Assembly (NCBI RefSeq): GCF_949628265.1
Contig: NC_088789.1
Coordinates: 33,039,883 to 33,103,882, forward strand
Length of the DNA stretch: 64,000 nt
Direction: 5' to 3'
Source of the DNA: Cloeon dipterum
Lineage: Eukaryota; Arthropoda; Insecta; Ephemeroptera; Baetidae
In this document: piece by piece, positions 16,600 to 52,983 of the stretch
How the letters are laid out: every line of letters begins with the position of its first letter
Position numbering within the stretch: position 1 is the first letter of the stretch
Made by a program: the position numbers and the translations under genes
The notes under the pieces: generated by a model
Database searches by the model: none
The model's input: the letters and a program-made list of their open reading frames with translations, nothing else
What the model was told of the DNA's origin: nothing

Positions 16600-16870
16600 G
16601 GTAAACCAATTGTTGTGTGATTGACACCGCGGGCGACAGTTATGGCAGAGCTCTCCTGCCACCTAACAAGTCTTAGTTGTCTCTAATCTCGTTTTTCATC
16701 CTTGTTGCAGATCTCGAAAGCATCTGCAGACGTGGAGAGCAGCCAGAAGTGCGTCGTGATGCGAGTTAGCGGGCAGTGCCAACAAGTTTGATAATGGTTG
16801 TCAAGACGATATTGTTGTATCTCTACGCCCTGCTGAAGCGGTGAGTGTTGAAAAAGAAAAGTTCATTTCC
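16600..16870 (+). promoter_or_regulatory. Repeat D, copy 2: likely promoter/first-exon region of NACHT-ANK gene 1
   Basis: The repeat, shared with 11390-11690 and 33040-33290, ends in GCTGAAGCG|GTGAGT. Here an ATG at 16794 opens a 47-nt coding exon into that donor, and its phase fits the next exon at 18256. This places the promoter within or just left of the repeat. No TATA box or initiator was identified with confidence. Confidence 0.45.
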
Positions 16871-19800
16871 GACAGTGAATTGATTTATGCAAAAGAGCTT
16901 TTTGCTTCATTGTGCAAAATTAAAACTGTTTTAAATTGAATCTGTCGAACAAACAATAAGGTTTTTAACGCACCCCTGAGTACATATGTATTTTAAAGGT
17001 CTTATTGTCAGCCGCGACATTTAGACTATTTAGAGGACCAGCTAATCCGAATTTCTGCCCTACGGCGGCTTAACGGCCTGGAAGGCCGGAAGACGATTTT
17101 TCTCCTGCATTATTTAATTTTTGACCCTTTTTCACCTGCAGCTGGCGTTGCTCCAGCGAGATTCGCGGCGACTGGAATAGAAAGGGAAACCGGGACAGGT
17201 TTTTGATCCCGTTCCTGTCCCATTTTTTACTCTTGTTTGTCCCTGTCCCTGATACCTTTAACCTTGTCCCTGTTTAGTCCCCCCTCGACCCCTTACCAGA
17301 TTCGTAATTTTTCAAATTTCTACTTAACTTTTAAAATTAGCCATTTTTGTCAGTAAGGAGTAAGGATAATATTAATAATATTAATATCCAACACACTCTG
17401 GTAGTTGTATAAGCCCTTAGTGTTCGAAGTAACCAACAGACAGCGCCACCGCGTAATTTTTGTAATAAATTTAATTTTAAGGCACATCACTTTCGCTGCG
17501 ATTTTAGACTCAATTCTGTTACTGTGCATTCTTCACTTATTAATTTTCTTATGAGTTATGGCGTGCTGAAAACCAAAATCGGTTTAGCCAATCGGTGTAG
17601 AATCGTGGAAAACTATTTTTTGAATGGCGCGGCTCGCAAAAGCTGGCGGCTACGGCTTGCTCGAGCAAAAAACGCGGCGTTGCTCGCTCAGACCTCTATA
17701 ACGCCGGACATTTGTCCCTAAAGCCACTGGAAAGGTGCAAAAACCAGCCCGTTCAGTTATTCGAGCATTTCGAGTCACTAAAATAACCACATTTTACAAT
17801 CTCTGACGTTGGGCAGCCAGTATTAGATCCCTGAGCTGCTCAAATAATACATCCCACTCTGCTTTGACACTCCTGAGAATGGGCTGGGGTCTTTGAGGTT
17901 AAAGTTTTCGTAAAGGATAAATAATATGGTTTTAAGAGGTCTTATTGTGAGCCATGTGCCACCAGACTTTGCCAACCAGACGCAATATATGAATTGAACT
18001 GCTGATTTCTGATGTTCCTGTAAAAATGCTTGATTATAAAAAGAAAAACACATCATTTGGGGCAGCAAAATGACTTCAAAAACATAAATATATGCAGTTC
18101 TGCGCGAATTAAGAGGTCAATTGGATAATTTGAAGTAGTACTTGTTAATAATGGTGCGAAATTCCATGTTCGAAGCTCGGGAATAACTAGCATTTTATTA
18201 GAATTTGAAGTTTAGGATTTATTCATCGCTAAGCAAAAGGTCTCTTGTATTTCAGGTTTCTATGCAGACGTGACAATGCATTGGAGGAAATATTAAAAAA
18301 AGGTATTAAAATGTTACGTAATAAGTAAATGGTTAAGTGGGCGTGGCGTGACTCTCAAATGGAAAACAAAATTCAATGGAAAAAAACTTGGATGTAATTT
18401 TCTAGGAGAAAAAGAAGGTCGTCCCAATGAACAGGCAAGCCTTGGTTTCTTTAAAACGGACGGCCAGATAAATATTCCCGCAAACGAGTAAAAATAAACC
18501 TAGAAAGCTTTAACTCTGAAATTAACTGCCCTTTTGTTCAAAGCGTCTTTGTCCTTGTCGTCCACTATGATTTTGAGAACCAAGCAATTGCTCGAGAAGG
18601 GGATTCTAATGACGTGCAGAACCTGAAAACAACGTTCGGAAATAACAGGAATTGCAACTTTCGTGATCTGAAATCACCGAAAAAAGAGCATTTGCTCGAT
18701 ATTCTTGGTGATCAGAAAGAGCTGTTACGATTTTTCTCCTCGAAAGGTTTGCGCAATCTTTTGAAAAAAGTACTTTTACTGAAATTGATTAATCTGTAGA
18801 TCCCCCAGACGTGTTTCTCCTTTTTGTGCTATCTCATGGATATGAAGATGGCATCATTTATACCGACCACTTACTCGACGATCAAAAAACAAACGCTCAT
18901 TTCACGACAGATGAAGTCTTCGACTCGATCAAAAAGTTGACCAAGTTCGAAAAGTGCCTCAAACTGATCAATTTCGGCGTAGGTTCCATACTCAATTTTA
19001 CGGTTTACAGTTTTTGAAGGAAAGTACTCTAATTTCCAGCCCTGTCGCGGGGAATTACCCGATCCAAAATTCAACAGGAATAAGGAAGTGTGTGAAGAGA
19101 CGTACAAAAACCGAAACGCCAGTAGGATCACGTTCACTCCAGCAATCCACAATTTGGTGGTTTTCTATTCAACCGTCGAAAGTATGCCTCGACTTAATGA
19201 TATATCACCTTAATTTTGAAATTTCATTCCTTTTAAAGCAACGCTAGCAAACAGAAATGAACTTGGGTCTTGGTTTGTACAAAAATACTGTGACTGTTTA
19301 AATCAGACTGAGGAAAAGCCGTTGTTGACATTCCTCTCGATGGTGCAGAACAAGGTGCACTTTTCGTCCATGCCTAATTTGAATACACGCGAATCCCTGG
19401 GTCAGACGCCAGAATTAAAGATGTTCTCTCAAGACCGAGAATTCTTTATTTCAAGGTGAAGTGCTTTTGGTTAAATTTAATTAAAAATTTTAATTCGTTC
19501 TCTTTAAGGTCACTGATTGCTCCAGTGACATTCCCAAACACTGATGGAAAAATGGTGAAACCTGGGTCGAATACGACGTATTCCAAACAATTCACATGGA
19601 AGTCTGATGAAGGACAAAACATTAGAGGTCGAAACGCATTCATTTTGTATGAAAAACGTGATGAACAAGTAGAAAAACTTGTTAAGTCTGTTCGTAACTT
19701 GGATTTTGAGACAAGATTATTTCAACTAAACAAACTCTCTTTGGACTCGTATTTAAAAATCTGTAAGCTTCAAATATTTTGTCGATATTTAATAGACTTT

Positions 19801-22800
19801 GATTCATACGAATTTCTCAGGTAGTGAGTTAGAACACGACGTCGGCTGCATTTTGACATGCATTTTTGGCGAAGTGAGTGAAAACGATGCGAAGGAAGTT
19901 TGCATTCTTGTCGGACAAGAGAAGAAGCCACTCACAGATATTCTGCACAGCTTTGTCGGACCGAAAAACGCCAAGTGGATCGGAAAGCCAAAAATATTTG
20001 TTCTAATTAACCAAGAGGCTTCGAAACGTGACACAGTAAGTCATTGCTCATATTTGGAACTTATGTATAGGAATAATTTAATTTAACCCTTCTCAAAGCT
20101 CTCACCAGAGGGAAAGTTTGATATTTCGGCTACGAATCACAGTGGCTGGCTGGTTCTGATTTTAAAGGATAAAGGTAACGAGAATTTAAGCTTTATACTT
20201 GCGTTTATGAAGATAAAAAATAATTTTTTCAATAGATTTGTTAGAAAAGCTGATCAGGATCTTCAAAAGCAAGGATCTCAAAAAAGGAAAAAGTCTACAG
20301 GAGATGTTGTATTCTTTGCTGATTTCTGAATCAAAGAAGAACAAAGTTTTGCTCAACTCTACGCTGCAATACCTCCTCGACTTCCCCGACTGGCCACGTA
20401 CTTTCGTCAGTCAGAGTTTCAGATTGAGGGAAAATGATAGCTCGAAGGTCAATACCTTTGAATTTGATGAGACGGTTAGAGAAGCAAAAAAATCCTTTGA
20501 TAGGGGGCATGTTTGGCTCATGAGTTCAGTTGCTGGATCCGGAAAGACGACAGTTCTAAAAGAAATAGCTTACCAACTCGGGAAATCTAACCCTGAATTG
20601 AAAATTTTGTATATTTCGCTGAAGAAACATTCGTTAACAATTTTGAACAAGCCCACCTTGAACCAATTCCTTGCTAGTGCAACATTTCATTCCACAGACG
20701 ACATCAAAAGGTGGATTGAGGAGAAAAAAGCCATTGTTTTCTTTGACGGTTTCGATGAAATTGATCCTCATCTTAGAGAAAAAGTGATCACATTGTTCCA
20801 TTCTTTGAAAGGAAGGGAAGTATCCATGTTTATTGCAACCAGACCTCACGAGGCAGAAATAATCAAGGAACGCATTGTTTGCGACGTACTTGTAGGGGTT
20901 GAACCTCTGAACGAAGAAAAGCAAATCAATTTCTTGAAGATTGTGACAGGAAAGAATGAAGAAGAATGCAAACAGTTTTTAACTGATTTCGAGGAGAAAG
21001 ATATTTTGGAGAATTCGTTGCATCTATCGTTGCTAGCCTCAATTAGAAGCGAAGGAAACTTGTATCAAATTTACGCAAAGGTCGTTGAGAAGAAACTTGA
21101 GCTCTGCCTACTGAGGGATGGATACAACATTGACGACAGCACAAATTTCCGTCTAAAGATGGCATTGGCTTCGATACATCTCCAGTTGATTGCTTTACGC
21201 TTCCTGAGGAATGAGAACCTGATTGGACGCGGAATAAGCAGGGAAGACTTGGAAAAGATGAACGACTACGGCGTTGCGACTGTTCTGGACGGAGAAGTCA
21301 CGTTTTTGCACCAGACGTTTGCTGAATTCCTGGCTACAAAGCAGTTCTTGGATGATTTTAATCTGTCACAGTTATTGGATTCGGCGCTTTTCCAAGATAG
21401 TACTTCTGCGCAGTGCAGGAAGTTTCTGGACTTATTCTACTGCACTCAGCAAAAAGAAAAACCTGAAGACTTGGGGGATCATGTGGAGGCTCTTTTAGCT
21501 GTCGCCAAATCGATTGGTCCTAACAATTTCTTGAAAAAGGTTTTGGAAAATAATCTAAGACAGGTTTTCTTAATGATTAAGCCCCGAATTTCGTTTCATG
21601 CAAATTCAAATTCTTCCATTTGCATGGAAAAAAGCCCAGAGCTGTTGATGAGTGCAATCGGCAATGAACAAATTGCCGTTCAACTGCTGGAAATGGGAAT
21701 TGTTGATAAATCAAGTTTGGAACAAATTTTGCCTGATTTGCTGCGAAATATTGAAGAGAATAATTCTGTTGTCGTCCTAGAGAAATTCAGATTGGAATTT
21801 GCGGATCTTCCACTTATGATTGAAGCCTGCTATTCCAACGATTCTGAAACGAGCAAAAATCTGAAGAAAGTAGGATTTACAGCAATCCGAAATGATTTTG
21901 ACATTATTCTCGAGATGCTTATCCAGATTGGAATTCGTGCTGTTGATGCATTTGATGAAGAAGAAAACAGTCTCTTTGCGGCTTGCAGATATGGAAGTGT
22001 CAAGTGCTTCAGAGTTCTGCTCAAACACGGAGCTCAAAAAGTAATTTATGGCAGTACCCTCTATGATCCTTTGAATGTGGCCACAGAATTCGGTCATTTG
22101 GACCTGCTGAAGTTCCTAATGGAAGAAAATCCCAGCTTATTCAAAAGAGATGAATCCACATTGGTTCTCGATGGGCTGCAAGATATTTGGAATCCATTCC
22201 AATATGCTATCATGTACGGACGCAAAGAAATAGCCACGTATTTTCTTTCAAAGTGCCCTGGTTTGATTGAAAGTAAAACGAAGGATGGTAAAAACCCAAT
22301 GCAACTGGCAGCTATTATGAGAAAGTGGGAAGTACTCGAATGGCTAGCTCAGTTACCAAACACTGATATCAAATCTTTGATCCCTGACGGAGAGAGTGTA
22401 TATTGGACGCAATTTGAGCTGGAAAATTATGAGCACTTCTTGATGCTTCAAGGCGGAGTCAAAGAAAAGGATAAAAAGGGGAGAAGTGTCCTTCATTACG
22501 CTGCAAAGTACGGTTATACTGATCTTGTTGCAAAATTCATCGAGGCCGGTGCCGACATCGAAGCCACGGACGTTGACGGCTGGAACGCGTTACACTTTGC
22601 TTGTCTGTTAGACAAAAATATTGAAACAATTAAGCTACTACATTCACGGAGCAAACAACTTGCTAAGGGAAAGACAAGTAAAGGACAAACAGCTTTGCAT
22701 ATTTTGGCGCAATATTGCAACCCAAAGGATTTTGGAAAAGCAATTTCGAGTAGCGTGGACATTGCGAGGTTTTTGTTTGAAGACGCTGGTGTTGATTTAA

Positions 22801-25800
22801 GTGCCAAGGACAATGAAGATGATAGAGCTTCTGGTATAGCTGATGAAAGAGGACTAGACAAATCAATAATAATGTTTCTAAGAGTACAACACATTGATCC
22901 TTCCGCAAAGTATGACTTGATGAATTCATCGGTGATTTTCTCCGTATCAGAAGCTGGTGATTTGCTGTCACTGCAACAATGGATTCAACAAGGCGGAGAT
23001 TTGTCAATGAGAGATGAATCTGGACGTACGGCATTGCAATTAGTGGAAGAGAAAGGGGAGTTTAGATTAATGCAGAAGAAGAACGAAACTGGACAGAATA
23101 TGCGGTTCAATGAACAAGAGAGGGAGAGTTCACTCTTGCTTGCCTGTAAACAAAAGAACTGGGATAAGGTTAAAAATTTGCTTGAATCCAAGAATTCGAG
23201 CATCAACAGGCAAGACAAAGATGGAAGAACGGCTCTGCATTATGCCGCAGAAGAAGGACATTTTGGTTTGGTCTTCCAGTTGCTTAGCCAAAGAGCTGAT
23301 ATGCATGTGAAGGATCACAATGGATGGACGGCGTTGCATTACGCCATTCTAACGAACAATAAAGATTTGGTTCAAATGCTGCTCGAAAGTGGTGCTGAAA
23401 TCGATTCGAAAACTAAGAGGGGAGAAACAGCTCTGCACCTCGCAGCCTACAAAGGCTCAACAGAATTAACGATAAAATTGATACAATGTGGTGCGGATGT
23501 AAATTCCAAGAACAATCATGGTTTGACATGTTTAAACATCGCCACAGTTAATAGAAATCTGGATTTGTTGGAAGTTCTCTTAAAAAATAAAGCTGATGTC
23601 AACAATGAATATAAGCTTTTTGGAAATACCCCTCTGCACCATGCTGCACTAGAGAACTATCCAGAAATTTTAGAAATGCTTGTCAATCATGGCGCCGATG
23701 TGAATTTACAAAATAAAAATGGATGGACAGCTCTGCACTTAGCTGCAAGGTATAACCCAGAACTGAGTCAAACGCTGCTAGATCACGGTGCTGATGTTAA
23801 TTCAAAAGAAATTGATGCATGGACTCCTCTGCTCCTTGCTGCAAGGTTTTATCCAGAGCTGAGTAAAACGCTTTTAAATCATGGTGCTGATGTAAATTCA
23901 AATACAAAAATGGGATCTTCTCCTCTGCACTTTGCTGCAAGGTATAATCCAGAACTGAGTCAAACGCTCCTGGATCACGGTGCTGATATTAATTCAAAAG
24001 AAATTGATGCATGGACTCCTCTGCACTTTGCTGCAAGGTATAATCCAGAACTGAGTCAAACGCTCCTGGATCACGGTGCTGATATTAATTCAAAAGAAAT
24101 TGATGCATGGACTCCTCTGCACTTTGCTGCAAGGTATAACCCAGAACTAAGTCAAACGCTGCTAGATCACGGTGCTGATGTTAATTCAAAAGAAATTGAT
24201 GCATGGACTCCTCTGCACTTTGCTGCAAGGTATAATCCAGATCTGAGTCAAACGCTACTAGACCATGGTGCTTATGTAAATTCAAATACAAAAATGGGAT
24301 CGTCTCCTCTGCACTTTGCTGCAAGGTATAATCCAGAGCTGAGTCAAAAGTTGCTGGACCATGGTGCTGATGTGTATTTAGAAAATAGAGAAGGATGGAC
24401 AGCTCTGCACGTTGCTGCAAGGTATAATCCAAAATTAGCACTAAAGCTGATCGACCACGCCATAGATGCGGATATTTTGGAATCAAAATTCAAAAATGAA
24501 TGGACTGCGTTGCACCTTGCTATGGAAATCAACTGCCCAGAATCAGTGCAAAAGCTTCCCGGCAAGGGCGCCGATGTTAATTTACAAAATGGTGATGGAT
24601 CCAAGGCCCTTCAATTAGCCAAAGTACAGAACTATCGAGCACTTGAGGAAATGCTCCTCGACCAGAGAATTTTTAAGAGTTTAAAACTCACGACAGGAAC
24701 TTCAGCTCTAACACTCGCCATTGAATCAAACAATTTGACAGTTGCTGAAAATCTAATTAATAATGGAGGTGATTTGACGGTTCGTGACAAGAATGGAAGA
24801 AATATTTTACTGCATGCTTTGAAGAACTTTGAAATGGTAAAATACTTGCATGAGAAAAACGGTGAATTAGTGAAGCAAGTGACAAACGATGGCAGCACTT
24901 ACCTGCACCTTGCAATTGACAACGACGACTGTCCCTTTGAAGTGATCCTTTGGCTCATCGAAGAAATTAAAATCGATGCGAATGCAACGAATGAATTCGG
25001 TGAGACAGCGTTTATGATGGCTTGTAGTAAGAATCGAAGTGACGTCGTCGAATATTTGTTGACAAACAAGGACATCGACTTAAGCAATAAAGATAGAGGT
25101 GGGAGGACTGCCCTGCACCATGCCGTCACATCAGGATGTGTGGATTTAGTGCAAAATCTGCTCGATCGTGGCGCTGATTTGAGGAAAAAGGACGATGAAA
25201 ACAGAAATGTCATGTTTTACGGATTGAAAAGTAAGGAAATGATTTTATATCTAAACAGGAAAAATTCGGAATTCATAAAAGCAGTGGACACTCTACAAAA
25301 CACTTTACTTCTGTATGCGATCGAATTTTTTTATATGGTTGATAGGGATGTGGTTCATTGGCTAATCAATGAATCCGGAATCGATCTAAATGCCGTGGAC
25401 GATGAGGGCAATTCAGCTTTTATTGTGGCCTGTATGAGGAGAAAGTGGGATTTTGTCGAAACTCTATTGACGAAGGATGTGGATATCCAAGTTAAAGATG
25501 AAGAAGGAAAAAACCCTCTACATTATGCTGCAGAATCAGGATACTTTGATTTGGTGCAGAAGCTTATCGAACGTGGTGTCAATCCGACTTTGAAAGACAA
25601 TCTCGGAAAGAACACAATGCACTACGCATTGCAACACTTGGATATTGTTAAAAGCTTGGACAGAGAACTGGCGAAGGAAGTGACCAAAGATAAAAACACT
25701 TCCTTGCACATTGCAATCGGGATATATGATTATTCGATTGAGGTGATTCGGTGGCTCTTAGATGAAGCTCAAGTAGACGTGAACGCTAAAAATCTAAATG

Positions 25801-26816
25801 GTGAGACTGCGTTGATGATTGCATGTTCAAAAAATAGGTTTGAAGTCATACAAATTCTTGTGGAGAAAAAAGCAGATGTCAGCATTCAGGACAACAAAGG
25901 ACGAACAGCTCTGCACCATGCAGCAAGATCGGGACACTTGGACTTAGTTAAAATTCTGTTTGATCATATGGCCTCAGAGAAGGACGAAGATGGCTCTCTG
26001 AACATTCAACAGACTCTCGTTGAACTTGTCAAACACGTTGACAAGGAGGACAACACATTGTTAGTCTTGGCGATGGAAAGTAGCGAAAAGTTTGACGAGA
26101 GTGTGATTAGTTGGCTGGTCGATAACAAAAAATTAGATTTGAATGCGGTAAACTGCAATGGCGAATCAGCTCTTCTTCTCGCTTGCAAGCACAGAAAATG
26201 GGACGCCGTTGACATTTTGCTGTCCAGAGAAGACACAATCATCGGTTCCAAAGATCAGAAGGAAAGAACTCCTTTGCATTGGGCAGCGTTTTCTGGAAAC
26301 CTGGATGTAGTTCAGATGCTGGTCGAGCGTGGCGCTGATTTAACTTTGAAGGACAGCGACGGAATGAACGTGATGCACCATGCCCTGAAAGACCTGGAAA
26401 CTGTAAAATTCCTGCACAATCTGAACAAAGGGCTTGTGACGGAAATCACGAAAAACGGAAGCACCTGTTTTCACCTGGCAGTCATTCGCGGCTCACCCGA
26501 AGTAATTCGTTGGCTAGTCGATGAGGGAATCGAAGTCGATCTGGACAAAAGCAATGAGCTTGGTTTGACCGCTCTTTTGCTTGCATGCCGCAAAAATATG
26601 TGGGAGGTCGTTGAGTTTTTGGTGGACAACAAAGTGGACATCACCAAATCAGATCGAGCGGGTAAAACTGTATTAAACTACGCTAAAGAATCAGATCAAT
26701 TAAAGTTGGTGGAATTACTGAATAAGTTGAGCGCTCCTAATTCAGGTGGAAAAATTCGGTCCCAGTGGAACCGAATATTTCGCTTTCAGCGGATCAAAAA
26801 TATTTGGTCAAAATAA
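16794..26816 (+). CDS. Caspase - pseudo-caspase - NACHT - ankyrin-repeat protein 1 (NLR-like), about 2680 aa
   Basis: Eleven exons join in phase at GT-AG sites: 16794-16840, 18256-18302, 18406-18487, 18544-18746, 18800-18978, 19040-19181, 19239-19455, 19509-19762, 19821-20035, 20099-20174 and 20236-26816. After a short hydrophobic start (MVVKTILLYLYALLKR), a caspase domain covers about residues 70-305: 'AREGDSNDV', catalytic His139 in LSHG, catalytic Cys188 in PCRG, and a p10-like 'VVFYSTVE...GSWFV'. A second caspase-like domain (about 310-490) lacks the dyad. NACHT follows: Walker A SVAGSGKTT with Lys591, Walker B IVFFDGFDEI near 655, sensor 'FIATRPHE', and a winged-helix-like 'FLHQTFAEFLA'. 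The remainder is dozens of ANK repeats plus a basic tail. Inferred role: cytosolic sensor in which NTP-driven assembly activates the caspase. Exons 3-11 are well supported by the paralogues; exons 1-2 rest on phase only. The first P-loop position is Ser rather than Gly. Confidence 0.85.
17605..17705 (-). repeat. Dispersed 'GCCAGCCGC' repeat, copy 2
   Basis: In reverse complement this matches 13550-13645, including 'GAGGTCTGAGCG', 'TTTTTTGCTCGAGC' and 'TTTTGCGAGCCGCGCC'. It lies in the predicted first intron of NACHT-ANK gene 1. Confidence 0.45.
17690..17870 (+). repeat. Repeat F, copy 1
   Basis: The segment shares 'GTCCCTAAAGCC', 'CTGGAAAGGTGC', 'CCAGCCCGTT' and 'GAGCATTTCGAGTCACTAAA' with 55515-55700. 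It is a shorter, rearranged copy within the first intron of NACHT-ANK gene 1. Confidence 0.5.
23713..24480 (+). repeat. 96-bp tandem ANK-coding repeats in NACHT-ANK gene 1
   Basis: About eight in-frame units of 96 bp (32 residues) run here, the central ones nearly identical. 'IDAWTPLHFAARYN' recurs at exact 96-bp spacing (for example 24003 and 24099). The 'KMGSSPLHFAARYN' unit occurs twice, about 384 bp apart, so four-unit blocks were also duplicated. A 32-residue period is one shorter than the usual 33-residue ankyrin repeat. Confidence 0.85.
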
Positions 26817-26988
26817 CTGTCAAGTGCAACTACATGATTTCTTAAATTTTATCATCTCTATAAGGTATTTCAGATGTTTGTGTTGAACTGTATATAAAAT
26901 GAAATATGTTTTTTCGGTATATTGTGTTGGGGACTATTATATTGTATATTTATATGTTTTTAATGAATATAATGTTGGAGTAACAATA

Positions 26989-26994
26989 ATTAAA
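26989..26994 (+). other. Candidate poly(A) signal of NACHT-ANK gene 1
   Basis: ATTAAA, the common variant hexamer, lies about 170 bp after the stop codon. No AATAAA occurs closer. Confidence 0.35.
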
Positions 26995-35451: not shown

Positions 35452-38400
35452 ATGCAAATAGAGACGAATTATTTCGCTTACTGTTTGGACACGAACACCA
35501 AAAAAAATTACTTCATTGTACCGTCAAAGTATTTGAAACCAAGACCACAAGCCAAACATTCGAATCCAGGAGTTGCCTGGGACACTCTTGGACAACAATT
35601 CTGGGGAGGTGTGTTCCAATCAGCATGGAACGAGTCTTTGGAGGTGGACCCTGACGATGGGTCCTTCCTGGACCAAAAACCCGACAAAGATTTCGGGCAG
35701 TTGCTCACCGAGGCAGAGTACAAAGAATGTCTCGTTCTTGCCACTGCTTCCTCCGTCGAAGAACTGCAACAGTACGTCCAAACGTGCAACATCAAAGTTC
35801 CAAATAAATACCGACGTTTGGACGATTCTGATGCTTCAGGAAGTCAACAACATGACGAGCTTCAGCAGGTACATCAACAGTTTATTTTCTTTAAACCACT
35901 ATTGTCAAAGGATGAATTGATCTTGACGTCTATAGAACCCGAAACCTCAGACAAATAATAAAAACAGACTCTCTATGACGATGTTTCAGCAAAACGAGCA
36001 ATTATTCAGGTGTGGAGAATCCAATCAGCAAGAGAGTAGCATAGATCACTCAATGGTCTCGCAAAGCTCGGAGTCAGAACCTGTTTCTGCAAGAGAAACT
36101 CCTTTGCTTAAGCCACCAGAGGTCACTGTCAGGGGTTTACCTGACGAAATATCGTCAGGTAAAACCCCGACAGTCACAGAGAAAGAACTAGAAGAACCGA
36201 TCAAATCACATGATGTCTCGGAGAATAATGAGAGAAGTAATTTCTCATTGATGAGTTTTCACTACAAAGATATCATCCATAATTACTTAAGAGTTGTGAA
36301 GAAATAATGGCTATATTCATTTATTCCAGGCGAAACACACATTCGACCTGAAGGGGTTGCGAATCTAGGATTTTTCGAAATTGAAACTGATGGAATAGTA
36401 ACCAGGAAAAACGCAGACAAGTACTTTTCCTGATTTTAGATCTAATTCGACACTTAAGTTTCGCTCTTTTAAGTGTTTGTGTCCTGGTCATTCACTACAA
36501 GTTCAAAGACAATCCTTTGGAAACGTTCCGAAACGGAGACGCCTGTGATGTGGAAAACCTCAAAACCTTTTTCGGGAAAAACCGAAATTGCAATATCCGT
36601 AACTTACAGTCACCGGACAAAAAGACATTGATCCAACTTCTCGGCGATGAAGAAAAGCTTTTGCAGTTTTTCAACACACAAGGTATCGATCTCGTTCAAA
36701 TCAAAATTTATGTTAACTTTTATGATGACTTGTCTGAATCAGATGACGTGCCCTCTGTTTTCTGGCTTTTCATTCTTTCTCATGGGTCTGAAAACGGAAC
36801 GATAGCGACCGACCACTTTGATGACGAAATTGAGGAGAACGAATATTTCACAACAGACGAGGTCTTTGACTCATTACAGAGGCTAAAGAGATTCAAAAAG
36901 TGTCTGAAAATCGTGAATTTTGGGGTAAGCTTCGACCACACAATTTAAAAACTAGATAAAAAGGAAAATTACGAGATGAATGTATATAGTCATGTATCAA
37001 AATATTCTTTTATACATTTCAGCCATGTCGGGGGTCATTGGATGATTCGAAGTTTGATTTAAAGAATTCATACACAAAATATGCAAACAGGAATTCATGC
37101 CGAATCATTACTCGCCACGGAATGCAAAACTTTGTCGTGTTCTATTCGACAGTTGAAAGTAATTTTTTAACGGCAACGATTGCTGTTTACCATAGCCACT
37201 AATTTATTTTAATCAAAATTACAGCGACAATGGCAAACACTAATAAAACAGGTTCATGGTTTGTCAGTAATATCTGCTTGTGTCTGAACAACACTGATGA
37301 TGAGTCCTTGTTGAAATTCTTCACCATCGTTCAGAGTCGAATGCATGTAAAGTCACGCGATTACAGGACCTTTGCCAACACGCCTCTAGGACAGACACCA
37401 GAGCTCAAAATGTTTCAACAGGACAAAAAATTCTTTATCTCAAAGTGAGTTTTATAAGGATTTTGATATAAACAATCCAGCCTGACTTCGCCATAAATTA
37501 CAAGAATCTATAAAAATAAACCAAAAACATTATAACAGTTTCAAACAAATTATTTTCACAGAACAAAAACGACAGCAAAACCTGTTTCAAACTATGATGC
37601 GAAGAGGGACACGAGCAAAGTCAGAAATGAACCAATTTCTCCATATTTCTCCTGGAAATCAGATGAAGGACAAGATATCAGGGGCCGCAGAGGTTTCCTT
37701 CTATCCGTGGTCCAAAGCAAACAAGTGCTAGAAATGAAAAGAGTTCTTCAGAACCTAGACTTCGAAATTAGAGACTGGATACTGAGTGGATCATCGATGG
37801 AGTTTTATTTTAAGATGGGTGAGCATCAAAATTGAACAATGAAGGAATTACAAATGGTTTAATACTGGTTTTACAGTTACCGAAATGGAACCAGACGTGG
37901 GCTGCATCATGACCTGCATATTTGGACCTGTGTGTGAAAACGAACAGAATGAGGTTTGCGTGCGCGTGCAAAAGGACAAAGAGATTCCAATCACGGACAT
38001 CCTACACAGTTTGGTCGGCCCAAATAACGATAAATTGATAGGAAAACCGAAAATTCTGTTCGTTGTTAACATGGAAGCACCACAAACGGACAATGTAAGC
38101 TCTACTTGTACTGATAGAATAGAGTATTATGATACATATATTTTAATTTAGATCTTTGTGCACATGAAAGATTTACAAGTGTCTGCAACAAACCACAGTG
38201 GCTGGCTAGTATTGATCCTAAGATATGAAGGTAATTTTAAAATGCTTACATGTCTTTGAGGATTAATTAAAAAATCTGTAACTTAGATGCATTAGAGCAG
38301 TTGATTGAACTCTTCGGAAACATCAGTGAGAAAAGCCTGCAAGAACTTCTGGAGCCTCTGCTAACTCGTGAGTCCAAAAGAGAGGATGCGGTTCTTCTCA

Positions 38401-40454
38401 ATTCTACATTGCAGTATCTCATCCAATTTCCTATTTGGTCGAGAGCATTTGTCAAACCCGATTTCAAGGTTAAAAAGACAAAATTATACCGCAACCAAAT
38501 GGTTTGTTTTGAAAATTCAACGGAACCACATATTGAGGAAAAGATTGATTTTGAAACATTATTAAAAAAGGTCAAACATTTCCTCGAAAATTCCCAAATT
38601 TCAAGCGATACTGGTTCTTCATTGATGTCAAACCCCGTCAGAGATTTAAATGCTGTTTCTGAAGCGAGCGATGTTTGGATATTTAATTCCATTGCTGGGT
38701 CGGGCAAATCAACCATTCTTGGGGAAATGGCGCAACAACTCTCCAAACTTGATGGAGAGTTAAAAATACTGCAAATTCCACTCAAAAAGTACTATCAGTA
38801 CTTGCAAGAAATTCCTGTGATGAGCGTGGATGAAATTGGATTCCTGGAAAAGACAACTTGCAATTCTCAAGCAGATATCAAACACTGGATTGAGAAGAGA
38901 GAACTAATTGTTTTCCTCGACGGTTTTGACGAGGTGTGTTCTGAATTCAGAGAAAAAATCATCAAAATTCTGATTGCATTAATTAATGCAAGAGTCCCAC
39001 TCTTTATCGGGACGAGGCCTCACGAAGTGCACCACATTCAAGAGAGGATAAAAAACTCGACGATAGTTGAGATCGAACCCCTTGATGAAGAAAAGCAAAT
39101 CGAGTTTCTGCGAATCGTGGCGCGAAAAAATCCAAATGAAATCGAAGAATTGAGGAAAATCTTCAAAGACCAAGGTATTCTGGGAAATCCGCTCTATCTC
39201 ACCTTGTTGGCCGAGTACACCGGTGATGGAAACTTGTACAAAATCTTTGAAAATATAGTGCGGTGCAAAGTGGAAATTGGTTTGAAGAGAGAAAATGGAG
39301 GAAAAGATGTCGGAGAGGAGACGATTGACAAATTATTGAAGCTCAATCAATTTGTGGCCTCTCGTTTTGTAACAGGAGTGAATAAGATCGACGACGACAG
39401 TGTTACACAGGAAGAATTGGAAAAGATGAACGCCGTTGGAGTTGTTACATATTCCAAGAACAGCTTAGTTTTCCCTCACCAAATGTTTGCGGAATTTCTT
39501 ACCGCACAAAAGTTCGTATACGATTTAAAAAATCCAGGCAATGAAAAGGTGCCCTTGTTCAACGATGATTTGATGCAGTGCAGAAAGTTCGTAGACCTCT
39601 TCTTTTCTACGAAGATTGGAATAGACGCATCCTACGCAGAGGCTTTTAAGGATTTTGCGGAATTGAACGACCCTTTGGAATTAGTCAAGATAATTTGTCG
39701 AGAGAATTTGATACAAATGTTCCTGATGCTCAACCTCGATCTCTCATTAAAAGATGAAGACGGCAAAAACGCTTTGCACTTCGCACTGCGGCACCTGGAA
39801 ATGGTCAAGATGGTTCACGAAAGGAACAGCAATCTAGCGACCGAAACAACCAACAATGGAGAGAGCTGTCTCCACCTGGCGATTGATGACGAGAAATGTA
39901 GCGAGGAAGTGGCTATTTGGCTCATGCAAAACACCCAAGTGGACAAAAACGCTGAAACCAAAACTAAAAACACACCACTTCTCCTTGCAGGTGCAAGAAA
40001 AAAATGGGAAGTGGTACAAAGTCTTGTGTTCACTAATGTTGAACTAAACAAATTTTGTCCAGATGGAAAATCAATTTTGTACTATGCCATCCTATCAAAC
40101 AAGTTAGGCTTGGTAAAAGAACTTATTGATAGAGGCTCGAGCATCAGTCTTAAGGATCAAAATGGAGACACAGCCCTTCATCTTGCTGCTAGGGCTAATA
40201 CAAACCCTGAAATTGTAAAAATTTTGCTTAAAAATGGTGCCGAAGTAAACGCAGAAAACAATGATAAATGGACCGCACTGCATTGCGCCGCAAGATACAA
40301 CCCAGTTTCAGAAATCGTCCAAATGCTGCTCGAAAACGGTGCCGACATTCATTCACGAAACAAAGATGGTCATACAGCCCATCACCTAGCAGCTAGGTCG
40401 AATACAAACCCTGAAATTGTTAAAATTTTGCTTGAAAATGGTGTGCCAAAGTAA
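35452..40454 (+). CDS. Caspase - pseudo-caspase - NACHT - ankyrin protein 2 (NLR-like, short ANK array), about 1407 aa
   Basis: Eleven phase-consistent exons: 35452-35868, 35990-36236, 36330-36420, 36474-36682, 36743-36924, 37023-37158, 37225-37444, 37562-37818, 37877-38094, 38152-38230 and 38287-40454. Start ATG 35452 is preceded by CCCAGTAAG, as in gene 3. Residues 1-139 form an unrecognised domain ('NYFAYCLDTNTKKNYFIVPS', 'GVAWDTLGQQFWGGVFQSAW'), followed by a Ser/Glu-rich linker. The caspase has His335 (LSHGSENG) and Cys384 (PCRGS), then 'FYSTVETT...GSWFV'. The dyad-less caspase-like domain comes next, then NACHT with Lys826 (SIAGSGKST), Walker B 'IVFLDGFDEV' and 'FIGTRPHEVH'. Only about seven ANK repeats follow before a stop. 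ANK-like sequence with stops continues to about 40950, so the array was truncated. A poly(A) signal is at 41139-41144. It may be a functional short form or an early pseudogene. Confidence 0.88.
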
Positions 40455-44365: not shown

Positions 44366-47300
44366 ATGCAAGCAGAAATAAATTATTTCGCTTACTGTTT
44401 GGACACGGAGAGCAAAAAAAATAACTTCATTGTCCCATCAAAGTATTTGAAACCAAGAGCAAATGCAAGACATTTGAATCCAGGAGTTGCCTGGGACACT
44501 CTTGGACAGGACTTCTGGGGAGGTGTCTTCCAATCAGCGTGGCACGAGTCATTGGAGGTTGACCCTGACGATGGGTCCTTCCTGGACCAAAAACCTAAGA
44601 CGGAAAAAGATTTCGAGCACTTGCTGACCGAGGCAGAGTACAAAGAATGTCTCGTTCTTGCCACTGCTTCCTCCGTCCAAGAGCTGCAACAGTACGTCCA
44701 AACGTGCAACATCAAGACTCCAAAGAAATACAAACGTTTGGATTTTCCTAACACTAGAGGAAGTCAACAAAAAGACGAGCCGCTTCAGGTAAGTTCAGAG
44801 CTTTTATTACAACTACTATTTTATTGAAGGTTCTGATTGATCATGACGTCTAGAACCGAAACATATTATCAGGGAAATGATAAAACGCAGATTTTCTACG
44901 AAAATGTTTCAGCAAATCAAAAGTAGTGAATCCAATCAGCATCCGAATAATGAGCATAGCTCAACGGCCTCAGAAAGCATGGAGGAGTCTAACTCTACCT
45001 CAAATATTGTTTCTAAAGAAGCAACTCCTGTCGTTATGCTACCAGAGGACGATGAAATTGTAATGGAAGATCCGATCAAGTCGCATGATGTTCCGGAGAA
45101 TGACGAGAGAGGTATTTCTCTTTGATGCGTAATTCATTCAAAGATTTCCATTTCCGGCATTACTTGTATTTAATATTGTTAGGAAATAATGGCTCTCCAT
45201 TCATTACAGCCAATACAATTAGACGATATGAAGGAGTAGCGAGTCTAGGATTTTTTGAATATGAGATAGGTGGACGTGTCACCAGAAAAAACGCAGACAA
45301 GTAGTTTTATTGGTTATACAGATCTAATTAGAAACTACAATTTCGCTCTTTCAAGTGTTTGTGTCCTGGTCATTCACTACGAGTTCAAAGACAATCCTAA
45401 AGAAAATTTCCGAAACGGAGACGCCTGTGACGTGGAAAACCTCAAGACTTTCTTCGGGAAAAACCGAAATTGCAATATCCGTAACTTTCCGTCACCGGAC
45501 AAAAAGACATTGCTCCAACTTCTCGGCGACGAAGAAAAGCTTTTGCAGTTTTTCAACACACAAGGTATCGATCACGTTCAAATTCATATTAATGTTAACT
45601 TTTATGATGAATTATCTGAATCAGATGAAGTGCCCTCCGTTTTCTGGCTTTTCATTCTTTCTCATGGGTCTGAAAACGGAACGATAGCGACCGACCACTT
45701 TGATGACGAAATTAAGGATAACGAATATTTCACAACAGACGAGGTCTTTGACTCATTACAGAGGCTAAAGAGATTCAAAAAGTGTCTGAAAATCGTGAAT
45801 TTTGGGGTAAGCTTCGACCACACAATCTAAAAACTAAATAAAAAGGAAAATTACGAGATGAATGTATATAGTCATATATCAAAATATTCTTTTATATATT
45901 TCAGCCATGTCGGGGGTCATTGGATGATTCGAAGTTTGATTTAAAGAATTCATACACAAAATATGCAAACAGGAATTCATGCCGAATCACTACTCGCCAC
46001 GGAATGCAAAACTTTGTCGTGTTCTATTCGACAGTTGAAAGTAATTTTTTAACGGCAACGATTGCTGTTTACCATAGCCACTAATTTATTTTAATCAAAA
46101 TTACAGCGACAATGGCAAACACCAATAAAAAAGGTTCGTGGTTTGTCAGTGATATCTGCTTGTGTCTGGACAACACTGATGATGAGTCCTTGTTGAAATT
46201 CTTCACCATCGTTCAGAGTCGAATGCATCAAAAGTCACGCAATTCCACGAACTTTGTGGAAAACACTCTTCTGGGGCAGACACCAGAGCTCAAAATGTTT
46301 CAACAGGACAAAAAATTCATTATCTCAAAGTGAGTGGAAGTGTCAATAAATGCAATAAAACCAATTTTAAACTTTAATGCGTCTAGGAACAAGAGAAAAG
46401 TCAGAAATGAACCAATTTCTGCAAATTTCTCCTGGAAATCGGATGAAGATCAAGATATCAGGGGTCGTAGAGGTTTCATTTTATCTGTCGTCCGAAGCAA
46501 ACAAGTACAAGAAATGAAAAAAGTTCTTCAAAATCTTGACTTCGAAATTAGAGACTGGACACTTAGCAGTGCATCCATGGATTGTTATTTTAAGATGGGT
46601 CAGTATAAAATATACGGAGGAATTTTAAATCTGGATAAACAATGGTTTTACAGTATCCGAAATGGAACCAGACGTGGGCTGCATTATGACTTGCATATTC
46701 GGACCTGTGTGTGAAAATGAACAGAAAGAGGTTTGTGTACGTGTGGGCCAAGATGCTCGTCCAATCGCAGACATCCTACACAGTTTGGTCGGCCCTAAAA
46801 ACCATAAATTGATAGGAAAGCCGAAAATTCTGTTCGTTGTTAACGTGAAAGCTCCTCAAACGGACAGTGTAAGTTTTGCTCCAACTGGTGCAAAAGATGA
46901 CTTTGATAATATCTTTTAATTTAGATCTCAATGCTCATGAAAGATTTACAAGTCTCTGCTACAAACCACAGTGGATGGCTAGTATTGATTTTAAAATATG
47001 AAGGTAACTTTAGAAACAATGTGTTTTAAGGTGCGCGTATTTAAAATCTCCATTCACAGATGCAGTAGAGAAGTTGATAGAACGTTTTGGAAAGGTCGGT
47101 GAGAAAAGCCTACAAGAACTTCTGGAGCCTCTGCTAACTCGTGAGTCCGATAGAGAAGATGCAGTTCTTCTCAATTCTACTTTGCAGTATCTCATCGAAT
47201 TTCCCAATTGGCCAAGAACATTTGTGAAACCCGAATTCAAGTTTAAAAAGGCAAACATCATTCGTAACCATAGGGTTAGATTTAAAAATTTAAGGGATTC

Positions 47301-50300
47301 TTCTAAAGAGAAAAAGATCGATTTTGATACATTAACGAAACAGGCCAAAAGATTGGTTAAAAATAACAAAATGTTGCTTGACAATCCTCCTCACAATCAG
47401 ACAATGATTCGTCTAGATAATCCACCCATTTCATGCGATATTAAATCCTCGATAAAGTCGATTCTCGTCGGAGACTTAGAAGCAAATTCTGTAGCGAGAG
47501 ATTCAGCTGATGCGAGTATTGTTTGGTTAATTACTTCTGTTGCTGGAGCAGGAAAATCGACTGTACTCAAAGAAATGGCGCACCAACTGACCAAATATTA
47601 TGGATGGATTAAAATACTGCTGGTTCCTCTAAAAAAACATTATCGATACTTATTTGACATGCCTGCAGTGAAAGTGAATGAAATCGAATTCCTCGAAAAG
47701 ACAACTTGCAATTCTCAAGCAGACATCACCAACTGGATTGAGAAGAGAGAAGTCATTGTTGTCCTCGACGGTTTTGACGAGGTGTGTCCAAGTTTCAGAG
47801 AAAAAATCATCAAAATTTCGATCGCATTAAATAATGCAAGTGTCCCACTCTTTATCGGGACCAGGCCTCACGAGGTGCACCACATTCAAGATAGAATTAG
47901 AAACACGACGTTAGTTGAGATTGAACCCCTTGATGAAGAAAAGCAAATCGAGTTTCTGAAGAAAGTGGCAGGAAAGAATAAGCAAGAAATCGAAAAACGG
48001 AGGAAAATCTTCAAAGATCAAGGTATTCTGGGAAACCCACTCTATCTCTCCATGTTGGCCGAGTACAAAGGTGATGGAAACTTGTTTGACATGTTTGACA
48101 AAATAGTGCGGCACAAAGTAGAAATTTGTTTGGTAAGAGAAAATGGTGGCAAAGATGTCGGAGAGGAGGTTATTGACAAATCTTTGAAATTCATTCAATT
48201 GGTGGCCTCCCGTTTTGTGAGAGGAATGAAGATCGACCAAGGCAGCGTAAGAAAAGAAGATTTGGAAAAGATGTACGCTTTTGGAGTTGTGACATATTAC
48301 AATGACACAGTAAATTTCACTCACCAAACGTTTGCAGAATTTCTCACCGCACGAAAATTCCTATATGATTTGAAAAATCCATTAGATGAAGAAGTGCCCT
48401 TGTTCAATGATGAATTGATGCAGTGCAGGAAATTCGTTGACCTCTTCTTTTCTACGGAGAAGGGGAAGCACGCATCCTACGCAGAGGCTTTTGCATATTG
48501 TGCTAAATCAACCGAGCCTTTGAAATTAATCAACCAAATTTGCGGAGAGAATTTGTCACAAATGTTCAAGTTGCTCAACCCCGATCTCTCATTAAAAGAT
48601 AAAGACGGAAAAAACGCTTTGCACTTCGCTTTGCAACACCTTGAAATGGTCAAGATAGTGCACGAAAAAAACAGCAAATTAGCGAATGAAACAACCAAGT
48701 ACAAAGAAAGCTGTCTCCACCTGGCGATTGCTGACGAAAAATGCAGCGAGGAAGTGGCTCTTTGGCTCTTGCAAAACGCTGACGTGGACAAAAACGCTGA
48801 AACCATAATTCAAGACACACCGCTTCTGCTGGCTTGTGAAACAAAAAAATGGGAAGTGGCACAACTGCTTTTATCGAAGTACAATGTTGAAGTAAAAAAA
48901 TGGAGTCTAGGAGAAATATCAATTTTGCTCCATGTTGTCCAGTCAAACAATTTAAATTTAGTTCGAGCAGTTCTTGGTAAGGGCGCCAATGTCAATTTGA
49001 AAAATGATTATGGAATAACACCTCTTCACGTTGCTGCTTGTTGTAACAAAAATCCAGATATAATTAACATTTTGATTGAAAATGGTGCTAAAGATACCAC
49101 AGAAAGCGAATACGAGTTGTCCAGTCTGCATTTGGCCGCTTTATATAACCCAGTTCTAGAAATTATCCAAAGGCTGCTCGAAAATGGTGCCGACGTTCAT
49201 TCAAAAGATATGGAAGATCTAACAGCCCTTCACCTAGCTGCTGGGTATAACAAAAATCCAGAAATATTGAAAACTTTACTTCAAAATGGTGCCAAAGTAA
49301 ACGCAAACGACTTTAACAAATGGAACGCACTGCATTGCGCCGCTAGTTTTAACCCAGTTACAGAATTTATCCAAGAGTTGCTTGAAAACGGAGCCGACGT
49401 TGATTCACGAAATAAGGATGGAAATACAGCCCTTCACCTAGCTGCTGCCTATAACAAAAACTCTGAAATAGTGAAAATATTGCTTGAAAATGGTGCTAAA
49501 GTAAACGCAAAAAACAATGCAGAGTGGACCGCACTGCACTTGGCCGCAAGACATAACCCAGTTGCAGAAATGGTCCAAAAGCTTCTCGACAACGGCGCAG
49601 AAGTTCATTCTAAAGTGTTAGAAGGATTAACACCTCTTCACCTTGCTGCTGGGTTTAACAAAAACCCTGAAATAGTCAAAATTTTGCTTGAAAATAGCGC
49701 CAACGTAAACGCACAAAACGATACTAAATGGACCGCATTGCATTTCGCCGCTGAATATAACGAAGCTGCAGAAATGGTCCAAAAGCTCCTCGACAACGGC
49801 GCCGACGTACATTCAAAAGGTCCAGATGGATGCACAGCCCTTCACCTTGCTGCTGGGTGTAACAAAAACCCAGAAATAGTCAAAATTTTGCTTGACAATG
49901 GCGCCGAATTAGATGCACAAGACAATAAAAAAAGGACCGCACTGCATTGCGCCGCTAATTTTAACCAAGTTGTAGAAGTTATCCAAGAGTTGCTTGAAAA
50001 CGGAGCCGATGTTGATTCACAAGAACATAGAGGAAATACAGCACTTAACCTAGCTTCTGGCTGGAACGAAAACCCTGAAATAGTGAAAATTTTACTTGAA
50101 AATGGTGCCAAAGTAAACGAAAATGACAATAATAAAAGTACCGCACTGCATTACGCCGCTAAATTCAACCCAGTTGCAGAAATTGTCCAAAATCTTCTCG
50201 ACAATGGCGCCGACGTCCACTCAAATTGTCTAGAAGGATTAACAGCCCTTCACCTTGCTGCTGGGTTTAACAAAAACCTAGAAGTAGTGAAAATCTTGCT

Positions 50301-52983
50301 TGAAAAGGGTGCAAATGTAAACGCACAAAGCAATGATCACTGGACCGTACTACATTACGCCGCTAAATTTAACCCAATTGCAGAAGTTGTCCAGAAACTG
50401 GTCAAAAACGGCGCCGACGTCCATTCCCAAGATCAAGAAGGGTCATCAGCTCTTCACCTAGCTGCTAGATGGAATGAAAACCAAGAAATAGTTAAAAATT
50501 TGCTTCAAAATGGTGGTGTAGTAAACGCAAATGACAATAATAAATATACCGCACTGCATTGCGCCGCTAAATTCAACCCAATGGCAGAAGTTATCCAAGT
50601 GTTGCTCGAAAACGGAGCTAACGTTGAGTCACAAAATAAAGATGGAAATACAGCCCTTCACCTGGCTGCTGGATGGAACAAAAACCCAGCAATAGTGACA
50701 ATTTTGCTCCAAAATGGTGCCAAAGTAAACGAAAATGACAATACAAAATGGACCGCACTGCATTACGCCTCTAAATTCAACCCAGTGGCAGAAATGGTCC
50801 AAGAGTTGCTCGACAATGGCGCCAACGTTCAGTCGCAAGATGAAAATGGTTTATCCGCCCTTCACCTAGCTGCTGGCTGGAACGAAAACCCTGAAATAGT
50901 GAAAATTTTATTTGGACATAAAGCCGAAGTAAACACAGAAGACAATAAAAAATCAACAGCACTGCATTTGGCCGCTAAATTCAACCCAGTTGCAGAGGTT
51001 ATCCAAGAGCTTCTCGACAACGGCGCCGACGTTCATTCAAATGGTCTAGATGGATTAACAGCCGTTCACCTTGCTGCTGGGTATAACAAGAACCCTGAAA
51101 TAGTGAAGATATTGCTTCAAAATGGTGCCAAAGTAAACGCAATTGACAACAATAAATGGACCGCACTGCATTACGCCGCTAAATTTAACCCAATTGCAGT
51201 AGTTATCCAAGAGTTGCTTGAAAACGGAGCCAACGTTAATTCACAAGATTGTAGAGGAAATACAGCCCTTAACCTAGCTGCTGGATGGAACAACAACTCG
51301 GAAATTATAACAATTTTGCTTCAAAATGGAGCTAAAGTAAACGAAAATGACAATAATAAATTTACCTCACTGCACTACGCCGCTAAATTCAACCCAGATA
51401 CAGAATTAGTCCAAAAACTTATCGACAACGGCACCGACGTTCATTCAAAAGACCAAGAAGGATTAACACCCCTTCACCTTGCTGCAGGGTTTAACAAAAA
51501 CCCAGAATTAGTGACAATATTGCTTGAAAATGGCGCCAACGTCAACTCACAAAGCAATACTAAATGGACCGCATTGCATTTCGCCGCTGAATATAACGAA
51601 GCTGCGGAAATGGTCCAAAAGCTCCTCGACAATGGCGCCGACGTTCATTCAAAAGGTCCCGAAGGATTAACAGCCCTTCACCTTGCTGCTGGGTGTAGTA
51701 AAAACCCAGAAATAGTTAAAATTTTGCTTCAAAATGGTGCCGAAGTAAACGCAGAACAAAATAGTAAATGGACAGCACTGCATTACGCCGCTGAAAATAA
51801 CCACAATGAAGAAATAGTCCGAAAGTTGCTCGAAAACGGCGCCGACGTTCATTCACGAAATCAAGACGGATTATCAGCTCTTCACCTAGCTATTGAGGGG
51901 AATGAAAATCGAGAAATAATAAAAATTTTGCTTGACAATGGTGCTAAAGTTAATGCGCAAGACAATAAAAAATTAACCGCTCTGCATTACGCCATTAGAA
52001 GCAACAAAGTTGCAACTGTGGTCGAAAATCTGCTCGACAAAGGCGCCGAAGTTAATTCAAAAACAATCACGGGACAATCAGCCATTCACCTAGCTGCAAT
52101 GTATAATAAAAATGCAGAAATTTTGCAAATTCTGCTCGACAAAGGTGCCAAAGTAAACGCAAAAGACATTGATGATTGGACCGCACTGCATTACGCCGCT
52201 AGATATAACCCAGCTTCAAATATCATCCAAAAATTGCTCGAAAACAGCGCCGACGTTCTTGCACAAAGTACGGATGGATTAACGGCACTTCACCTAGCTG
52301 CTAGGTGGAACACAAACCCCGAAATAGTGAAAGTTTTGCTGGAAAAAGGTGCCAATGTAAACGCACAAAATAATAACAAGTGGACCTCACTGCATTTAGC
52401 CGTTAGATATAATCCAACTTCAGAAATTGTCCAAATGCTGCTCGAAAATGGCGTCGACGTTCATTCACAAATTAAAGATGGATATACAGCCCTTCACTTA
52501 TCTGCGATGTATAATAAAAACCCAGATATTTTGAAAATTTTGCTTCAAAATGATGCCAAAGTGAACGCACAAGACAATAATACATTTACCGCGCTCCATT
52601 TGGCTGCTAGATTTAACCCAACTCGAGAAATCGTCCAAAATCTGTGCGAAAATGGTGCTGACGTTCTTTTAGAAATTGAAGCTGGATTAACAGCACTTCA
52701 CCTAGCTGCTGGGTGGAATGAAAACGCAGATATTGTGAAAACTTTACTTGAAAATGGTGCCAAAGTAAACGCACAAAACAATGATAGAGTGAGCGCACTG
52801 CATTTTGCAGCTAGATTTAACCCAGCTTCAGAAATAATCCAAATGCTGCTCGAAAACGGCGCTGACGTTCATTTACATGATCAAGATGGATATACAGCCC
52901 TTCAGCTAGCTGCTGAGTACAATACAAACCCGGAAATAGTGCAAATTTTGCTCGCCAATGGTGCAAAATTAAACGAAACATGA
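44366..52983 (+). CDS. Caspase - pseudo-caspase - NACHT - ankyrin protein 3 (NLR-like), about 2630 aa
   Basis: Eleven exons, with the same intron positions and phases as gene 2: 44366-44788, 44913-45111, 45210-45300, 45356-45564, 45625-45806, 45905-46040, 46107-46329, 46387-46598, 46654-46868, 46925-47003 and 47060-52983. Residues 1-141 repeat the unrecognised N-terminal domain of gene 2. The caspase has 'FRNGDACDVENL', His321 (LSHG) and Cys370 (PCRGS). The second caspase-like domain has 'CIMTCIFG' and 'ILFVVNVK' where the His and Cys motifs would be. NACHT has Lys822 (SVAGAGKST), 'IVVLDGFDEV' and 'FIGTRPHEVH', ending with 'FTHQTFAEFLT'. About 43 ankyrin repeats of 34 residues follow, alternating two types. 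Inferred: an intracellular sensor-protease triggered by ligand at the ANK array. It is the most complete copy and shows no defect. Confidence 0.9.
48575..52980 (+). repeat. 34-residue ANK array with 204-bp super-repeat in gene 3
   Basis: From about 49000 on, the repeats are 34 residues (102 bp) instead of 33 and alternate between an 'LHLAAG.NKNPEIVKILL' type and an 'LH.AAKFNPVAE.VQ.LL' type, giving a 68-residue (204-bp) period. A block including 'FAAEYNEAAEMVQKLLDNGA' at about 49735-49860 recurs almost unchanged at about 51562-51690, evidence of recent internal duplication or conversion. Confidence 0.85.

Follow-up and report, generated by a model that had tools for sequence, protein, structure and literature searches.

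Candidate inflammasome-like proteins joining a caspase, a degenerate caspase, a NACHT and ankyrin repeats in the insect Cloeon dipterum

Can an insect carry a caspase in the same protein as the NACHT switch and the repeat array that would control it? Drosophila, C. elegans, and various arthropods are described as being without NOD-like receptors (NLRs) (PMC7308585), and NACHT-containing proteins were reported from shrimp (PMC12370184, PMC11508797). In one of these reports arthropod NLRs are without an N-terminal effector, and inflammasomes are on that ground held to be possible in the listed phyla except Arthropoda (PMC11508797). The question is raised by a stretch of 64,000 nucleotides of Cloeon dipterum (contig NC_088789.1, positions 33,039,883 to 33,103,882), referred to here at its full length as the window, in which an earlier sequence-only reading had placed three genes (here A, B, and C), each with a caspase, a second caspase fold, a NACHT, and an ankyrin (ANK) array. 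Our data support the view that caspase, pseudo-caspase, NACHT, and ankyrin repeats are encoded in one gene, of which the genome appears to hold about a hundred copies.

Gene models and the pairing of caspase and NACHT exons

The three genes of the 64-kb window all lie on the plus strand. Gene B comprises 11 coding exons that run from ATG to stop without an internal stop (1407 residues), and its 10 introns are all GT-AG and 53-121 nt long. Gene C is built likewise, with 11 coding exons open from ATG to stop (2630 residues) and 10 GT-AG introns of 55-124 nt. Gene A is open from 18406 through eight GT-AG introns (53-63 nt) to its stop at 26816, and with two added 5' exons (16794-16840 and 18256-18302) it is open over 2680 residues. 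The equivalent of exon 18256-18302 is a small exon with an ATG in which the paralogues L029, L035, and L036 begin, and gene A reads TTG at that place. Exon 16794-16840 found no counterpart upstream of the paralogues (blastp, E 1e-4). Gene A might start in this candidate exon or might have lost the usual start codon, and its 5' end is therefore best regarded as uncertain.

Eight core introns with the phases 2-1-0-1-2-1-0-1 are shared by A and B, as given by spliced alignment, and by C. In gene C the aligner returned seven of the eight and read across the fifth, which, when set by hand, is an intact GT-AG intron of 57 nt with the same phase as in A and B. Since identity between A and B is as low as 54% in the caspase and 48% in the second caspase fold, the shared phases are not a trivial likeness between recent copies. 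The lengths given by the sequence-only reading for the three genes were exact, and the common core, phases, and open frames that it described are confirmed, the 5' end of gene A being the part in doubt.

We found at least 101 NACHT matches by Pfam across the genome (190 Mb in 10 contigs), a count that is a lower bound; all of them are above the cut-off and none contains an internal stop. The second-fold exon of gene A, used as a query, gave 113 matches, also free of internal stops. A second-fold exon lies upstream on the same strand within 3 kb of 97 of the 101 NACHT matches (94 within 1 kb), with a median gap of 528 bp. At control positions no such exon was found, neither within 1 kb downstream on the same strand (0/101) nor within 1.5 kb on the other strand (0/101). 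The four NACHT matches without an upstream second-fold exon (L021, C3:17627467, C5:24463252, and C4:34246949) are possibly other NACHT genes; L021 is also without caspase exons. Conversely, 16 of the 113 second-fold exons have no NACHT match within 6 kb downstream, and 11 of these lie at C3:8346644-8631669, where they may form a subfamily without a NACHT or with a diverged one.

Beyond the window we read the 20 best-scoring other NACHT loci and 10 loci taken at even steps from the remaining 78. Caspase exons are present in 29 of these 30 loci (19 of the 20 best-scoring, all but L021, and 10 of the 10 evenly picked). As aligned, 13 of 19 and 4 of 10 loci have the exact eight-phase pattern, and the others are partial or depart from it at one or more introns; some of these deviations probably stem from the aligner. 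The last intron, which leads from the second fold to the NACHT exon, falls in phase 1 at all 19 loci and measures 55-68 nt in 17 of them, being long in L022 and L029 (1744 and 2512 nt). Genome-wide, the Pfam C14 model gave 36 exon matches, nine of them just upstream of NACHT matches; it detects few of the family caspases because they are split into exons. Furthermore, the pairwise distances of the first caspase, the second fold, and the NACHT correlate among 22 copies (0.95, 0.91, and 0.94; permutation p 1 in 3000), which is what a gene passed on as a single unit would show. The conserved introns and phases, with a last intron that joins the second fold to the NACHT exon, uphold the earlier claim that the protease is built into the same gene as the NACHT-ANK sensor. 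The cluster of three, for its part, is confirmed as it was observed and understated the family, which is genome-wide.

The two caspase folds, the NACHT and the ankyrin array

Pfam matches to Peptidase_C14 in the first caspase, to NACHT, and to Ank_2 were obtained in each of A, B, and C (Table 1). A profile of 11 first-caspase copies aligns with caspase-3 across p20 and p10 (E 1.3e-10). We compared the catalytic residues of 32 copies, namely A, B, and C, 19 of the first 20 loci, and all 10 later loci. LSHG and xCRG are each present in 32 of 32, so that the His and the Cys are always kept, even where identity to B falls to 47-56%, as it does in most aligned copies. None of the 32 copies keeps the Gln of QACRG, which is the usual form of the caspase active site (PMC11508797): Gly stands there in 30, Ala in one, and Ser in one, and the motif reads GPCRG in 28 copies, GSCRG in two, APCRG in one, and SACRG in one. 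Since this Gln is missing in all copies, cleavage specificity may differ. From the constant His-Cys dyad together with the changed specificity pocket we infer a working protease whose specificity is possibly not for Asp. A separate caspase-like gene is found at L010 (1483-2073; C5:27.155 Mb), with LTHG and with QASNG, in which Ser replaces the catalytic Cys; it sits in a cluster of C14 matches at C5:27.148-27.160 Mb.

The three single copies of the second fold that were scanned are near the limit of what Pfam C14 detects: that of gene B scores at the cut-off (E 2.2e-4), that of paralogue L024 above it (E 7.7e-5), and that of gene A alone gave no match. A profile of 11 copies found caspases only among the 56 PDB sequences listed (up to E 10), with a best E of 1.3e-5. 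SHG and CRG are both missing in 22 of 22 second folds. Judged by these features of its sequence, the second fold is a catalytically dead caspase p20 fold, that is, a pseudo-caspase. A p10 that continues into the NACHT exon appeared plausible by eye; the profile extended in that direction gave a best E of 3.5e-6, and its match stayed confined to p20.

The NACHT is above the Pfam cut-off in 3 of 3 genes, and Walker A and Walker B are visible in the alignment as GxGKS/T and DGFDE. Behind it, all repeat matches in the NACHT exons of A, B, and C belong to ankyrin families (E 0.01), and none to leucine-rich repeats (LRRs). In the array of gene C, 36 units of 34 residues were compared; their framework is nearly fixed, and positions 1-3, 5, 13, 14, 18, and 23 vary most. 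The same positions are usually variable in ankyrin repeats, and therefore this variability is compatible with recognition and is no proof of it. An AlphaFold model of the gene B NACHT exon only, built from three sequences, reached a predicted TM-score (pTM) of 0.44 and a predicted local distance difference test (pLDDT) of 70-86 over most of the nucleotide-binding part. In a Foldseek search with this low-confidence model, NLRC4 (E 3.3e-9), NOD2, and NLRP3 rank first. A death fold ahead of the NACHT is unsupported, the confidence of the model being below 50 there. Each domain that had been read in these genes is thus borne out: the LSHG and CRG caspase by motifs in all 32 copies, the NACHT and the ankyrin array by Pfam, and the second caspase fold by a family profile that matches caspases only, with weak single-copy support from Pfam.

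Genes B and C begin with an N-terminal domain of about 140 residues (NYFAYCLDT...; 35452-36236 and 44366-45111). A search of the A region and of the 20 loci gave one further copy, in L022. For the gene B copy, no relative was found in Pfam (best E 0.2) or in the PDB (best E 0.77). CARD, PYD, Death, and BIR gave no Pfam match even at E 5 in the parts scanned, namely the caspase regions of A, B, and C and the N-terminus of B.

Diversification, genomic placement and features of the window

In each of 12 pairs chosen by hand, the ratio of nonsynonymous to synonymous divergence (dN/dS), calculated by the Nei-Gojobori method (NG86) without a significance test, stays under 1 for the first caspase, the second fold, and the NACHT alike. 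Between B and C, dS is 0.09 in the caspase (36330-37444 and 45210-46329) versus 0.51 in the second fold and 0.53 in the NACHT. This difference points to recent gene conversion of the caspase exons, to which the exchange between B and C was likely limited. We found that 79 of the 101 NACHT matches lie within 5 Mb of contig ends, against an expectation of 27, and that 55 lie within 2 Mb, against 11, contig ends being assumed to be chromosome ends. Tandem grouping is common, with 75 of 101 having another NACHT match within 100 kb, and the window is preceded, at distances of 5.3 and 40.9 kb, by two further plus-strand matches.

The arthropod host supposed by the sequence-only reading agrees with 94 Chitin_bind_4 matches in the genome. 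An Orco exon, of which 49 residues match Orco of several insects (E 7e-24), further indicates an insect; to our knowledge, Orco is confined to insects. Only five matches to 7tm_6 were found, and only one to PBP_GOBP, for which short exons can be missed.

Table 1. Positions of the features of genes A, B, and C in the window
Feature	Positions	Strand	Evidence or remark
Gene A, ATG exon of an earlier model, uncertain	16794-16840	+	Open, GT donor; no paralogue conservation
Gene A, probable first shared exon (EEILKKG)	18256-18302	+	Conserved with L029, L035, L036
Gene A, caspase with LSHG and PCRG	18406-18487, 18544-18746, 18800-18978, 19040-19181, 19239-19455	+	Spliced alignment, open model, C14 E 2e-21
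Gene A, second, degenerate caspase fold	19509-19762, 19821-20035, 20099-20174	+	Spliced alignment, open model, family profile against PDB
Gene A, last exon, with the end of the second fold (or a linker), then NACHT, ankyrin array, and stop	20236-26816	+	NACHT E 1.9e-10, Ank_2 E 3.1e-227
Gene A, 96-bp repeat array	23719-24431	+	Inside last exon
Gene B, N-terminal exons	35452-35868, 35990-36236	+	Domain of about 140 residues, then low-complexity linker; open from ATG
Gene B, caspase	36330-36420, 36474-36682, 36743-36924, 37023-37158, 37225-37444	+	Spliced alignment, C14 E 3.9e-16
Gene B, second caspase fold	37562-37818, 37877-38094, 38152-38230	+	C14 E 2.2e-4, at Pfam cut-off
Gene B, NACHT and short ankyrin exon	38287-40454	+	NACHT E 1.8e-10, Ank_2 E 1.5e-42
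Gene C, N-terminal exons	44366-44788, 44913-45111	+	Likeness to gene B N-terminus; open model
Gene C, caspase	45210-45300, 45356-45564, 45625-45806, 45905-46040, 46107-46329	+	Spliced alignment, C14 E 1.9e-16
Gene C, second caspase fold	46387-46598, 46654-46868, 46925-47003	+	81% identity to B (aligned region), open model
Gene C, NACHT and long ankyrin exon	47060-52983	+	NACHT E 9.2e-7, Ank_2 E 1.5e-300
Gene C, 204-bp tandem unit, 19.4 copies	49012-52975	+	Ankyrin array

Two further features lie on the minus strand of the window. GC-rich open reading frames at 58898-61215 match EGF (E 4.4e-24) as well as laminin G (E 2.2e-11) and resemble a cell-surface gene of the crumbs kind, that name being a guess. 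At 54163-55143, an open frame of 327 residues matches C2H2 zinc fingers weakly, with scores under the Pfam cut-off.

Proposed working, rival explanations and known systems

We hypothesize, and on balance consider probable, that the family consists of single-polypeptide inflammasome-like sensors in which an ankyrin-sensing NACHT switch activates its own caspase and the pseudo-caspase regulates it in cis. The ankyrin array would bind or monitor a ligand, ligand binding would free an ADP-locked NACHT for oligomerisation, and the oligomer would crowd the N-terminal caspases and so promote their proximity activation without a CARD or pyrin adaptor. For the caspases of apoptosome and inflammasome it is established that an oligomer leads to an active enzyme. 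The pseudo-caspase may act in cis as a partner or a brake, as does c-FLIP, which regulates caspase-8. The output would probably be regulated cell death or the processing of a defence substrate; no gasdermin partner was found, in a search that is uninformative because it found gasdermin nowhere. Near chromosome ends, duplication and gene conversion would diversify the family in the way that recognition genes are expected to show. A broader proposal, that an insect lineage evolved or kept a polymorphic arsenal of about a hundred adaptor-free one-protein inflammasomes which expands in subtelomeric regions, each protein having an ankyrin sensor, a NACHT wheel, a caspase of altered specificity, and a pseudo-caspase as governor, seems plausible to us at slightly under an even chance.

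Several results weigh against the proposed one-protein sensor. With the S1-pocket Gln of QACRG missing in 32 of 32 copies, the caspase may not cut after Asp, or may cut weakly. The AlphaFold model of the gene B NACHT exon is poor (mean pLDDT 48.2), TM-scores to NLRs are at most 0.32 among the Foldseek matches used, and the three-sequence NACHT profile gave no PDB match at E 0.01. The start of gene A, with TTG for the ATG of its paralogues, is doubtful. In addition, hhalign returned no relation between the first- and second-caspase profiles, and the p10 of the second fold went undetected even with the profile extended into the NACHT exon; a c-FLIP-like dimer is therefore weakened.

The same genes could serve a role that is not antimicrobial, such as self/non-self compatibility, endosymbiont control, or genomic conflict, comparable to the fungal NLRs of heterokaryon incompatibility. 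We regard this as unlikely, and nothing specific speaks against it, as sequence does not decide the trigger. The crowding at contig ends, the tandem copies (75/101 within 100 kb), and the high likeness among ankyrin units would all suit such a role, and fungal NLRs with caspase-like proteases control cell death (PMC12881547). A slightly smaller likelihood attaches to the view that the first caspase is no longer a protease and that both folds bring in separate caspases as a scaffold or regulator, in the manner of an inactive caspase-like adaptor. The uniform loss of the Gln is in line with this view, and the second fold shows that the family tolerates catalytic loss; however, the His and the Cys are kept in 32 of 32 copies although most aligned copies are only 47-56% identical to B. 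We think it improbable that the family is a decayed or decaying expansion in which few genes still work, as could be suspected from the TTG at the usual start of gene A, the frameshift required to align L048, and the 16 of 113 second-fold exons without a NACHT match within 6 kb downstream. Neither the 101 NACHT nor the 113 second-fold matches contain stops, and dN/dS stays under 1 in all 12 pairs. B and C are fully open, and for these two a pseudogene array was rejected on that ground, with the start of gene A remaining doubtful. That the caspase and the NACHT-ANK part are neighbouring genes wrongly joined by the model is very improbable and was rejected on the last intron, which is in phase 1 (19/19 loci) and of 55-68 nt (17/19); the join needs no start or stop, the pairing is kept in 97 of 101, and the domains co-diverge.

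By class, we would place the proposed one-protein sensors among NACHT STAND proteins, with a caspase as judged by its dyad; having no LRR and no adaptor domain that we found, they would not be bona fide NLRs, and they would be inflammasome-like by their likely working. They resemble the animal NLRs NLRC4, NOD2, and NLRP3 in a NACHT switch with repeats behind it, in a fold ranked first among the PDB matches, and in a caspase as the likely output, and their number recalls the large lineage-specific expansions of sponge, coral, and sea urchin (PMC7308585). They differ in having ankyrin repeats and not LRRs, in the absence of CARD, PYD, and Death from the parts scanned, in a caspase that is carried in the same protein and not recruited, and in the extra dead caspase. 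With c-FLIP and other pseudo-caspases the second fold shares a caspase fold without His and Cys beside a presumably active caspase; unlike c-FLIP, it is covalently tied to the caspase and the NACHT, and its p10 is undetected.

Some fungal NLRs carry an N-terminal CHAT caspase-like or serine (S8) protease, and fusions of these proteases to WD40, TPR, or ANK repeats occur, so that the order of protease, NACHT or NB-ARC, and repeat in one protein is common to them and to the insect family (PMC12881547). In fungi, however, the CHAT or serine protease is mostly found beside a gasdermin gene (PMC12881547), whereas the insect family has an animal-type Peptidase_C14 and a pseudo-caspase. Coral repertoires combine NACHT with many partners (PMC4083563, PMC12314368, PMC8260672); those of coral and other invertebrates are similar to the family in their many copies and varied partners, including ankyrin (PMC4083563, PMC12314368), and bacterial STAND systems use caspase effectors (PMC8195603). 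The available passages of these sources contain neither the caspase-pseudo-caspase-NACHT-ANK order nor an arthropod case. The N-terminal effector that is missing from printed arthropod NLRs (PMC11508797) is built in here. A damselfly genome paper comments on the size of the caspase family, and the words NACHT and NLR do not occur in its available text (PMC5381652). We found no arthropod protein of this order in the open-access literature searched by word, a scope outside which most subscription journals and preprints lie; within it, the statement of the sequence-only reading that no such arthropod system is described was not contradicted. What appears to be new here is the animal-type caspase with a pseudo-caspase in an insect, proteins of the protease-NACHT-repeat kind being already known.

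If the broader proposal is true, insects would have NLR-type immunity in an adaptor-free form, which would do in cis the work of the vertebrate sensor, adaptor, and caspase-1. An effector-bearing family of about a hundred copies would overturn, for at least one insect, the view that arthropods have no NLR inflammasome (PMC11508797). In insects, sensing inside the cell and cell death driven by caspases could then be tested directly, and a caspase constantly paired with a dead one would be a natural test case for the control of caspases by pseudo-caspases. Furthermore, the copies near chromosome ends would be an animal parallel to the diversification of plant and fungal NLRs.

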